DNA from: an uncultured Aquincola sp. | GTDB lineage: Bacteria > Pseudomonadota > Gammaproteobacteria > Burkholderiales > Burkholderiaceae | Assembly: GCA_937883885.1 (NCBI GenBank) | Contig: CAKZXL010000446.1 | Coordinates: 1 to 7,567 of the forward strand | Length of the DNA stretch: 7,567 bases | Direction: 5' to 3' | In this document: positions 3,846 to 5,480 of the stretch, piece after piece | How the letters are laid out: each line of letters begins with the position of its first letter | Numbering within the stretch: position 1 is the stretch's first letter | Translations under genes and position numbers: made by a program | The notes under the pieces: generated by a model | The model's database searches: none | What the model was told of the DNA's origin: nothing | Seen by the model: the letters and a program-made list of their open reading frames with translations, nothing else

Positions 3846-3967
3846 AGCCCTGCATGCCTTGCTCCGCCCGGCCAGGGCAGCCTTTGCCGCGCGGGCTTTT
3901 GCGCGGTGCCGGTCGCAAGACCACCGGCCGCAAGGCCATCGATCGAAGGAACCCTCCCTATGCTTGA
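3842..3967 (+). CDS. Possible 41-codon leader ORF at the bchZ-pufB junction
   Basis: This short frame begins at an ATG overlapping the bchZ stop (ATGA at 3842-3845). It ends with TGA at 3965-3967, just past the pufB start at 3960. The predicted peptide has 41 residues, is basic (many Arg and Lys), and has a CMPC motif near its N-terminus and no membrane segment. I recognise no family. The arrangement resembles pufK of Rhodobacter sphaeroides, a short ORF whose end overlaps the pufB start and which affects pufB translation, but there is no sequence argument for homology. It could equally be a chance open frame through the GC-rich spacer, and codon use cannot be judged on 41 codons. No separate Shine-Dalgarno sequence is obvious, so any translation would depend on ribosomes finishing bchZ. 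Confidence 0.25.
3876..3928 (+). promoter_or_regulatory. Hairpin-forming spacer between bchZ and pufB
   Basis: Two short perfect inverted repeats lie side by side. CCGCGC (3887-3892) pairs with GCGCGG (3901-3906) across an 8-nt loop ending in TTTT. GCCGGT (3908-3913) pairs with ACCGGC (3923-3928) across a 9-nt loop. A weaker 4-bp pairing, GGCA (3876-3879) with TGCC (3885-3888), would compete with the first. No T-run follows either stem, so they do not look like intrinsic terminators. They may act as RNA processing or stability elements within a bch-puf transcript (inference). I see no clear sigma-70 promoter here. Confidence 0.45.
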
Positions 3968-4109
3968 TCCCAGAAGCGGCTCGCTTTCCGGCCTGACAGA
4001 ACAGGAAGCGAAGGAATTCCATGGCGTGTTCATGACGAGCTTCGTCGGATTCACCGCCGTGGCCATCGTGGCCCACGTCCTGGTGTGGATGTGGCGTCCG
4101 TGGCTGTAG
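3960..4109 (+). CDS. pufB: LH1 antenna beta polypeptide
   Basis: PufB is the beta subunit of the core light-harvesting complex (LH1, B870). It is a single-helix inner-membrane protein that pairs with PufA and binds bacteriochlorophyll a in the ring around the reaction centre. It has 49 residues, a normal size. The conserved [10 protein letters not shown] segment ends at H21. The membrane helix runs over about residues 24-44 and contains H39 (VAHVLVW), the axial ligand to bacteriochlorophyll, exactly 18 residues after H21 as in other LH1 beta chains. The C-terminus WRPWL is also typical. The start at 3960 was preferred over an in-frame GTG at 3906 because GAAGGA (3945-3950) lies 9 nt upstream and this start gives the usual beta length. 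The next ORF begins 27 nt after the stop. Confidence 0.97.
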
Positions 4110-4136
4110 CCACAGCCCATTGACGAGAGGGTTGTC

Positions 4137-4367
4137 ATGACCGACCTCACCCACCATCACTCGCTGCCCACGGCAGCGCCTGCCCGGGACTCGCTGGCCA
4201 CTGTCGGCGTGTTCATCGCAGGCTTTGCCGTGCTGCTGGTGTTCGCCCTGCTGGCGCAGCTGCTCATGCTGCCCTGGCGGGCCTGGCTGCCGGGCGCCGA
4301 GGGCGAGCCTTCGCTGCTCGGTGCGGTGCGGGCGGCCGTGTACACCTTCATGTCCTACCTCGACTGA
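4137..4367 (+). CDS. Unrecognised single-helix membrane protein between pufB and pufA, beta-like
   Basis: The 76-residue product has a polar N-terminus with HHH at 6-8, one strongly hydrophobic helix (about residues 23-45), a WRAWLPG boundary, and an acidic, Gly/Pro-containing tail ending in a possibly amphipathic segment (61-75). GAGAGG (4125-4130) lies 6 nt before the ATG, so it is very likely translated. Residues 24-51 align without gaps to PufB 22-49 with 11 of 28 identities, including GVF and W-R-x-W-L. Q41 replaces the bacteriochlorophyll-binding His, and V23 stands at the second conserved His. This suggests a diverged beta-like or accessory LH1 subunit that cannot bind pigment in the usual way (inference). 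Its architecture also recalls PufX, but the sequence does not match PufX or PufQ as I know them. It ends in tandem stops TGA-TAG, the second merging with the pufA ribosome binding site. Confidence 0.85.
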
Positions 4368-4381
4368 TAGGAGGCCCCACC

Positions 4382-4573
4382 ATGTGGCGTATCTGGCTTT
4401 TGTTCGATCCGCGTCGCGCGCTCGTCGCTCTGTTCGTGTTCCTGTTCGTGCTCGCGCTGCTGATCCATTTCATCTTGCTGTCCACCAACAAGTTCAACTG
4501 GCTCGACGGCCCCACCAAGGCCGTGGCCACGCAGAACTCGGCGATGCCGGCGGCCACCCCGCCCGCGCGCTAG
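4382..4573 (+). CDS. pufA: LH1 antenna alpha polypeptide
   Basis: PufA is the alpha subunit of the core light-harvesting complex, forming the inner ring of helices around the reaction centre. It has 63 residues. The N-terminal MWRIW and FDPRR motifs are classic LH1 alpha features. The membrane helix covers about residues 13-33, with the bacteriochlorophyll ligand H29 in [10 protein letters not shown], followed by FNWL at 38-41. An excellent ribosome binding site, TAGGAGG (4368-4374), lies 7 nt upstream, in keeping with the high expression expected of antenna genes. After the conserved part there is a tail of about 20 residues rich in Ala, Pro and Thr, which may be removed after translation as reported for some alpha chains. 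The usual basic residue at position 6 is Leu here. A strong stem-loop follows the stop. Confidence 0.97.
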
Positions 4574-4582
4574 CGCCCCACC

Positions 4583-4621
4583 GCAGGCAGGCACCGCGGC
4601 GCGGCTGCGGCACCTGCCTGC
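4583..4621 (+). promoter_or_regulatory. Stem-loop between pufA and pufL
   Basis: GCAGGCAGG (4583-4591) pairs perfectly with CCTGCCTGC (4613-4621). After a 2x2 internal loop (CA/CA), seven further pairs including one G-T close a 3-nt loop near 4601-4603. No T-run follows, so this is unlikely to stop transcription. Its position matches the intercistronic hairpins that protect the 3' end of pufBA mRNA in Rhodobacter, giving more antenna than reaction-centre protein. The same role is inferred here. Confidence 0.75.
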
Positions 4622-4655
4622 ACTTGTCCAAGACGTCCTGGCGAAAGGATGCCCC

Positions 4656-5480
4656 ATGGCCATGCTGAGCTTCGAAAGAAAGTACCGGGTCCGCGGCGGC
4701 ACGCTGATCGGCGGCGACCTGTTCGACTTCTGGGTCGGCCCCTTCTGGGTCGGCTTCTTTGGTGTCACCACCGCGTTCTTCTCGCTGGTGGGCACCTTGC
4801 TGATCATCTGGGGTGCCTCGCAGGGGCCCACCTGGAACCTCTGGCAGATCAACATCGCGCCGCCCGACCTGCATTACGGTCTGGGCATGGCCCCGCTGAT
4901 GGAAGGCGGGCTGTGGCAGCTGATCACGGTGTGCGCCATCGGCGCCTTCGTGTCCTGGGCGCTGCGCGAGGTGGAGATCTGCCGCAAGCTGGGCATGGGC
5001 TACCACGTGCCCGTGGCCTTCGCGGTGGCCATCGGCGCCTACGTCACGCTGGTGGTGGTGCGGCCGGTGCTGCTGGGTGCCTGGGGGCATGGCTTCCCGT
5101 ACGGGATCATCAGCCACCTCGACTGGGTGTCCAACACCGGCTACCAGTACCTGCATTTCCACTACAACCCGGCGCACATGCTGGCGGTGAGCTTCTTCTT
5201 CGCCACCACCTTCGCGCTCAGCCTGCATGGCGCGCTCATCCTGTCGTCCACCAACCCCGCCAAGGGCGAGCCGGTGAAGACGGCCGAGCACGAGAACACC
5301 TTCTTCCGCGACGCCATCGGCTACTCCATCGGCACGCTGGGCATCCACCGCCTGGGCCTGTTCCTGGCGCTGTCGGCCGGCTTCTGGAGCGCGGTGTGCA
5401 TCGTCATCAGCGGGCCCTTCTGGACCCGCGGCTGGCCCGAGTGGTGGACCTGGTGGCTCAACCTGCCGGTGTGGCGTTGA
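4656..5480 (+). CDS. pufL: Photosynthetic reaction centre L subunit
   Basis: PufL and PufM form the membrane core of the type II (quinone) reaction centre, which carries out light-driven charge separation from the special pair to the quinones. The protein has 274 residues and five membrane helices. With Met as residue 1, the ligands are H154 (accessory bacteriochlorophyll), H174 (special pair), and H191 and H231 (non-haem iron). Subtracting one gives the standard numbers 153, 173, 190 and 230. Tyr L162, H L168 and Glu L212 are present. Position L213 is Asn rather than the Asp of Rhodobacter sphaeroides. L166 is His where I recall Asn in Rhodobacter. AAAGGA (4644-4649) lies 6 nt before the chosen start. 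A second ATG at 4662 is possible, but the first keeps the usual N-terminus. Confidence 0.98.

Follow-up and report, generated by a model that had tools for sequence, protein, structure and literature searches.

The puf operon on the 7,567-nucleotide stretch of DNA analysed here (the window) raises the question of what a 76-codon gene is doing between pufB and pufA. All genes in the window lie on the + strand, in the order bchX(end)-bchY-bchZ-pufB-ORF76-pufA-pufL-pufM-pufC, where bchX, bchY and bchZ were named by gene order and Pfam hits and ORF76 denotes the gene in question. The features relevant to ORF76 are the following.

3960..4109, + strand: pufB, LH1 beta chain, 49 aa (PF00556 E 2.3e-13; NCBIfam pufB 1.2e-25)
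4125..4131, + strand: Shine-Dalgarno-like GAGAGGG ahead of ORF76, read from the sequence
4137..4367, + strand: ORF76 (ORF2/ORF74 family), ligand-less tailed LH1 beta homologue by profile comparison; ATG, 76 codons
4188..4262, + strand: predicted transmembrane helix of ORF76, residues 18-42 (AlphaFold2 model, mean pLDDT 69)
4203..4205, + strand: Val23, at the site of the second conserved His of beta chains (His there in 3 of 128 family members)
4257..4259, + strand: Gln41, at the site of the bacteriochlorophyll-ligand His of beta chains (His in 1, Gln in 78 of 128 members)
4275..4286, + strand: W-R-x-W motif, residues 47-50, retained from beta chains (W+6 in 127, R+7 in 125, W+9 in 120 of 128)
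4290..4364, + strand: C-terminal tail of ORF76, beginning PGAEG (helix predicted at residues 60-75; tail-only profile match to tailed PufB)
4369..4374, + strand: AGGAGG, pufA ribosome-binding site immediately 3' of ORF76, read from the sequence and by Shine-Dalgarno analysis
4382..4573, + strand: pufA, LH1 alpha chain, 63 aa (PF00556 E 1.3e-17; NCBIfam pufA 1.7e-22)
4583..4621, + strand: strong hairpin in the pufA-pufL gap (fold of 4565-4660)

The preliminary description had placed a well-started 76-codon gene between pufB and pufA, and that reading holds. The PufB of the window is tail-less, stopping one residue past WRPW, and keeps both histidines. Shine-Dalgarno duplexes were calculated at -6.3 kcal/mol for ORF76, -6.2 for pufB and -10.2 for pufA, and 14 nt separate the ORF76 stop from the pufA ATG. 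The segment containing the pufA-pufL hairpin folds at -48.7 kcal/mol (z -2.0, with 4 of 200 shuffles equally good). ORF76 is thereby separated from pufL and placed with the LH1 genes, the hairpin being a likely mRNA segment boundary. Rfam at gathering scores gave no match anywhere in the window. Among the operons fetched for the PufL+PufM tree the nearest was that of G184, at 98% identity, and the ORF76 protein itself is 87% identical to an Aquincola tertiaricarbonis protein.

Searched against Pfam, NCBIfam and PHROGs, including the PufX and PufQ models, the ORF76 protein of the window gave no significant match, and Foldseek with its predicted model returned nothing convincing (three matches, best E 6.8). 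When about 5.8 billion proteins were searched, 86 of the 100 candidates proved to be homologues, and 75 of these have 74-78 residues. The source name "light-harvesting complex 1 beta chain" is attached to 34 of the 86, an automatic label that calls for caution in annotation. The Pfam LHC model (PF00556) matches 3 of 60 members at E up to 0.1, and a DUF2567 model that looks unrelated matches 16 of 60. The genome loci selected by the gene all had the order pufB-ORF76-pufA (23/23).

To avoid selecting by ORF76, operons were also picked via pufM, with G001, the Roseateles puraquae genome that carries locus L010, as the point of departure. Draws around G001 gave 62 of 399 genomes for the family, 48 of 399 (44 new) for the order, which we take to be Burkholderiales, 31 of 398 (27 new) for the phylum and 7 of 369 (5 new) for the class. 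The family and order draws provided 106 regions, 98 of which had adjoining pufB and pufA. Of the eight left out, six were cut by contig ends (L114, L115, L178, L188, L199 and L207), one (L087, G149) had its pufBA on a separate contig, with a tailed PufB and no ORF76, and in one (L062, G375) no pufBA was found. This last locus carries pufLM without adjoining pufBA, and its assembly contained no LHC-family match above the cut-off. Of the 98 complete operons, 83 have ORF76 in the pufB-pufA gap, against none of the 32 operons from the phylum and class draws. What had been read as a departure from the expected pufB-pufA order is instead the rule in the family and order draws, and the survey of the pufB-pufA gap in relatives, a check named beforehand, found the gene conserved there.

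The gene has been published before, as an ORF to which no function was assigned. According to the accessible part of PMC12817894, which cites Nagashima 1994, the puf operon of Rubrivivax gelatinosus contains two such ORFs, ORF1 upstream of pufB and ORF2 upstream of pufA. In Roseateles depolymerans, ORF74 is RD2015_RS05155, between pufB (RS05150) and pufA (RS05160); in our locus for strain DSM 11813 (L014) the match covers 8001-8222, where 74 codons run from an ATG inside a longer frame, again between pufB and pufA. ORF2 and ORF74 thus occupy the same place as ORF76, ORF2 being equated by its described gene position, and an ORF of this type, of about 74 aa in the pufB-pufA gap, is present in all 23 gene-selected loci and in 83 of the 98 pufM-selected operons. 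Our literature searches, mostly of freely accessible papers, found no paper naming ORF2/ORF74 a beta-chain homologue and no report of its complementarity with the PufB tail. New here are the beta homology over the whole length, the single clade, and the complementarity with the PufB tail in 98 operons.

A profile of 44 ORF76 members run against the PDB hit 8z81_B (E 4.1e-17), 9m8m_B (1.9e-13) and 7xxf_B (4.7e-13), which are true tailed LH1 beta chains of 75, 67 and 73 residues that extend past W-R-x-W. Profile-profile comparison by hhalign scored the ORF76 family against 27 tailed PufB sequences at 99.5% (E 1.3e-22, 68 columns), and the controls stayed at 4.7% against PufA and at or below 1.2% against reversed sequences. 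The tail alone matched that of tailed PufB at 96.7% (E 4.6e-10; alpha-end controls below 1%), which answers the worry that hydrophobic helices resemble one another. Within the window, the ungapped alignment of ORF76 24-51 with PufB 22-49 was confirmed at 11 of 28 identities. When the aligned residues were shuffled in fixed register this number was reached with p = 2.5e-5, and when the helix region was shuffled over 21 registers with p = 2.5e-4, so hydrophobic composition is insufficient to explain the identity. The earlier caution about common origin can be relaxed: the profile scores and shuffles support ORF76 as a beta-chain relative that itself lacks the bacteriochlorophyll ligand. By profile comparison, ORF76 is a LH1 beta-chain homologue along its whole length, tail included. 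Chance hydrophobic similarity is ruled out by the same scores and shuffles, and a relation to the alpha chain by the low score against PufA. The accessible part of PMC12817894 aligns ORF2 with PufA chains, gives its identity to PufA2 as 10.1-14.5% and concludes that ORF2 was not the source of Gemmatimonas pufA2; the beta-like character of the family agrees with that conclusion.

The 25-residue tail had been described as absent from PufB. This is true of the window PufB and fails as a general rule, since many true LH1 beta chains are tailed. The nearest relatives of ORF76 are tailed PufB chains such as that of G1044 (23/52 identities), so its tail is inherited rather than a novelty. Tails comparable with that of ORF76 in the order draw are SMIDGVKAAVNSFMPYVFMA (G1044) and SMLDGVKAAANTITPYMMS (G933). 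The tailed chains (8z81_B, 9m8m_B and 7xxf_B, and the PufB of G1016, G1044, G933 and G946) are homologous to ORF76 from end to end. They differ in that a tailed PufB is the operon's own PufB, with the ligand His in 21/21 and the second His in 20/21, whereas ORF76 is a second, ligand-less gene. AlphaFold2 models of the monomers, both of low confidence, look alike: for ORF76 (mean pLDDT 69) a disordered N-terminus and helices at 18-42 and 60-75 are predicted, and for a tailed PufB (mean pLDDT 68) helices at 14-45 and 55-75. By homology to beta chains, the ORF76 tail would be periplasmic. A tree built on 77 columns and rooted at its midpoint shows ORF76 as a single clade (97/96), and a 98/93 branch sets ORF76 and tailed PufB apart from the PufQ-like proteins considered below. 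A recent copy of the window's own PufB is ruled out, the family being one clade joined to tailed PufB.

Homology to beta chains over the helix and its flanks is thus accompanied by loss of their bacteriochlorophyll ligand. Gln and Val do stand at the conserved His sites, as first noted (PufB His39 aligns with Gln41 and PufB His21 with Val23). The ligand His is gone in 127 of 128 members, replaced by Gln (78), Cys (13), Ser (11), Glu (8), Ala (6) and others, and so varied a site argues against a replacement pigment ligand. The sole member with His at this position is the homologue at 1791 of locus L108 (G093), where a pigment ligand was possibly regained or retained. Pooled over 21 pairs of close operons, pN/pS was 0.16 for ORF76, 0.16 for pufA and 0.13 for pufB, indicating purifying selection on the ORF76 reading frame. 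By region the values were 0.08 for W-R-x-W plus tail, 0.22 for the transmembrane part and 0.23 for the N-terminus, so that constraint is strongest in W-R-x-W plus tail. These data show the homology of ORF76, its conserved gene position and the constraint on it.

The occurrence of ORF76 is complementary to the PufB tail. PufB ends 1-3 residues past WRxW in all 83 ORF76-bearing operons of the family and order draws. Among the 15 operons without ORF76, 11 have a PufB with 27-28 extra residues and the other four (G116, G842, G984 and G955) carry a PufQ-like ORF upstream of a PufB without a tail (1-3 residues). ORF76, tailed PufB and PufQ-like ORF therefore occur exactly one per operon in 98 of 98, a comparative pattern that suggests a division of labour between PufB and ORF76. 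By profile count, the exclusivity fails in the 32 phylum- and class-draw operons: 12 have a tailed PufB and a PufQ-like ORF, 11 a PufQ or PufQ-like ORF with a tail-less PufB, 4 a tailed PufB only, and 5 none of these (L137, L138, L140, L213 and L216).

Because the independent events are few, we treat the complementarity as a pattern and attach no significance test to it. On a quick PufL+PufM tree the states need 6 changes at fewest, with 2 pairs on starred branches; the first sample held 3 independent pairs, of which 2 went in the expected direction and 1 (G116) had no tail difference. A careful PufL+PufM tree of the family draw nests two groups of tailed operons within the ORF76 operons, on starred branches, and a single clade for the seven tailed family-draw operons was not rejected (AU p 0.156). 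These seven comprise six with both genes (L054, L056, L071, L075, L100 and L112) and G149. Their PufB+PufA group with those of eight tailed outgroup operons (98/89; tail excluded, 117 columns). In the six loci PufL and PufM lie among the ORF76 operons and pufBA among the tailed outgroup ones. In those operons the entire pufB-ORF76-pufA cassette was probably swapped for a tailed pufBA. Such a replacement may carry no functional equivalence, which counts against a split of beta-chain jobs. An origin of the tailed family-draw PufB by fusion of pufB to the ORF76 tail was rejected, since the signature of ORF76 is missing from their tails and their pufBA fall together with those of other tailed operons.

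The expression signals of ORF76 are those of an LH1 gene. Over 52 operons the median Shine-Dalgarno values were -7.4 for ORF76 (range -12.1 to +0.6), -7.8 for pufB and -7.3 for pufA (paired p 0.83 and 0.48), and ORF76 lies 10-17 nt from pufA in all 52. For R. depolymerans, the accessible part of PMC10037100 reports that loss of the sigma factor SP70 lowers pufA, pufB and ORF74 more than any other locus and that these three genes make up the major 1-kb puf transcript. Synthesis at LH1 level is more in keeping with a biogenesis factor or a stoichiometric subunit than with a ring opener present in one copy.

Our best explanation, which we advance tentatively, is that ORF76 is a ligand-less, tailed LH1 beta paralogue of one origin, that the jobs of the beta chain were split, and that ORF76 acts in LH1 biogenesis. 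A tailed beta chain would have been duplicated, with PufB keeping the His and dropping the tail and ORF76 keeping the tail and dropping the His. ORF76, produced at LH1 level just ahead of alpha, would insert as a single helix with beta topology and hold no bacteriochlorophyll of its own via histidine. Its retained W-R-x-W interface would touch alpha or beta while LH1 is being assembled, and the conserved tail helix in the periplasm would give in trans what a tailed PufB gives in cis. The explanation is weakened by the failure of exclusivity in the 32 phylum- and class-draw operons, by a tail match to PufQ-like proteins of 26% only, and by the one member in 128 with a ligand-site His. If it is correct, the third LH1-transcript gene of a large group of phototrophs, so far an ORF of unknown function and now a ligand-less beta paralogue, would be a missing player in LH1 assembly, and its replacement of the PufB tail makes the purpose of that tail testable.

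The strongest rival, which we consider rather doubtful, makes ORF76 a permanent, pigment-free third chain at LH1 level, sitting between or beside the alpha-beta pairs like a gamma chain, with its tail closing off or stabilising the periplasmic side. The retained W+6, R+7 and W+9 make a place in the ring equally possible, and expression signals on a par with pufB and pufA suit a ring component. No solved RC-LH1 in the PDB copy searched is close to the window PufB (best-scoring match 7xxf_B, 31/46 identities), so a chain of this kind could have been missed. Against it, operons with a tailed PufB have no comparable chain in the pufB-pufA gap, and PufQ-like ORFs stand in for ORF76 in four operons. 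Moreover, the C-terminal 13 residues of beta are unseen in the Rps. palustris RC-LH1, which is attributed to heterogeneous cleavage on mass-spectrometric evidence (accessible part of PMC7806223), and PufQ, a relative by our profiles, is described as no structural RC-LH1 component (available text of PMC5725709). From these last two points we infer that a role in LH1 biogenesis is most likely, ahead of a permanent ring subunit. The Rhodopila gamma-like chain, with 22 residues and the opposite orientation, is unlike ORF76. Chain 4 of PDB 8k5o, a 105-residue beta-like chain that occurs once in the RC-LH1 entry of Halorhodospira halochloris, is a possible precedent for an odd beta-like subunit.

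PufX, protein-W and gamma chains are small extra RC-LH1 membrane proteins of other species (PMC9640540 and PMC7806223, in their accessible parts), and the preliminary description had named a role of the PufX or protein-W kind. A single-copy ring-opening or quinone-channel subunit occupying one beta place is now unlikely. A position at the end of an open ring would be in keeping with its single helix, beta-like interface and lost ligand, but the pufA-pufL hairpin leaves ORF76 on the side of the LH1 genes, its Shine-Dalgarno equals those of pufB and pufA, and complementarity with the PufB tail would go unexplained. Pfam found no sequence relation to PufX (PF11511, no hit), and pufC rather than pufX follows pufM. 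Protein-W has three transmembrane helices (accessible part of PMC7806223), whereas ORF76 is predicted to form one long transmembrane helix, a short turn and a tail helix.

ORF76 is also linked to PufQ, a protein whose way of working is disputed (PMC5725709, in the text available). Rhodobacter-type PufQ lies upstream of pufB in 10 phylum-draw operons; one of these proteins was run against Pfam (PF05398, 80.8 bits) and nine formed our PufQ profile. PufQ-like ORFs of other lineages occupy the same place, and hhalign scored them at 98.6% against tailed PufB, 98.6% against ORF76 and 94.2% against Rhodobacter PufQ. Rhodobacter PufQ scored 0.5% against tailed PufB, no direct match, and 48% against ORF76. 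With tails alone, PufQ-like proteins matched tailed PufB at 91.5% and ORF76 at 26%, and ORF76 gave no match to Rhodobacter PufQ. PF05398 gave no hit to the ORF76 protein of the window at E up to 10 and reached 1 of 60 family members (E 0.019), and ORF76 lies in the pufB-pufA gap rather than directly upstream of pufB. PufQ and PufQ-like proteins resemble ORF76 in being small, ligand-less, single-helix products of the puf operon with a profile relation; they differ in clade, in gene position and in lacking the L-P-G-A-E signature in the sequences inspected. ORF76 as a relocated PufQ was rejected on the 98/93 branch, and the tree indicates that ORF76 is a separate beta derivative rather than a moved PufQ. 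The same beta stock may also have given rise to the PufQ-like proteins.

That ORF76 is a PufQ equivalent, tuning the haem/bacteriochlorophyll branch or carrying pigment precursors, is the least probable reading: the chain of matches through PufQ-like proteins, the shared ligand-less single helix and the fact that ORF76 and PufQ-like ORFs never co-occur in the 98 operons favour it, but ORF76 is nearer to tailed PufB, the direct and tail-only matches are poor, and 11 of the 98 operons have neither gene. A wider reading, possible though somewhat doubtful, is that the LH1 beta tail, ORF76/ORF74/ORF2 and PufQ are one homologous LH1-building module, supplied in cis by tailed PufB or in trans by ligand-less beta paralogues, with PufQ an old beta derivative and ORF76 an independent later one. 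A simple equivalence of tailed PufB and PufQ-like proteins is argued against by the 12 of 32 operons that carry both.

PufQ-like ORFs upstream of pufB were seen at L121:4703-4987(-) and in L143, L132, L139, L117, L184, L187, L192, L214, L215 and L217, and further ones in L118, L119, L123, L128 and L131. By profile comparison they bridge PufQ and tailed LH1 beta chains, and where tested they were missed or barely reached by the family models (for L121, PF05398 E 0.021 and NCBIfam pufB E 0.0012). In the PufQ-like ORF at 1475 of L215 (G1173), AHF and WRGWMP stand at the positions taken in beta chains by the ligand His and WRPWLP, and its product is a possible intermediate from beta chain to PufQ.
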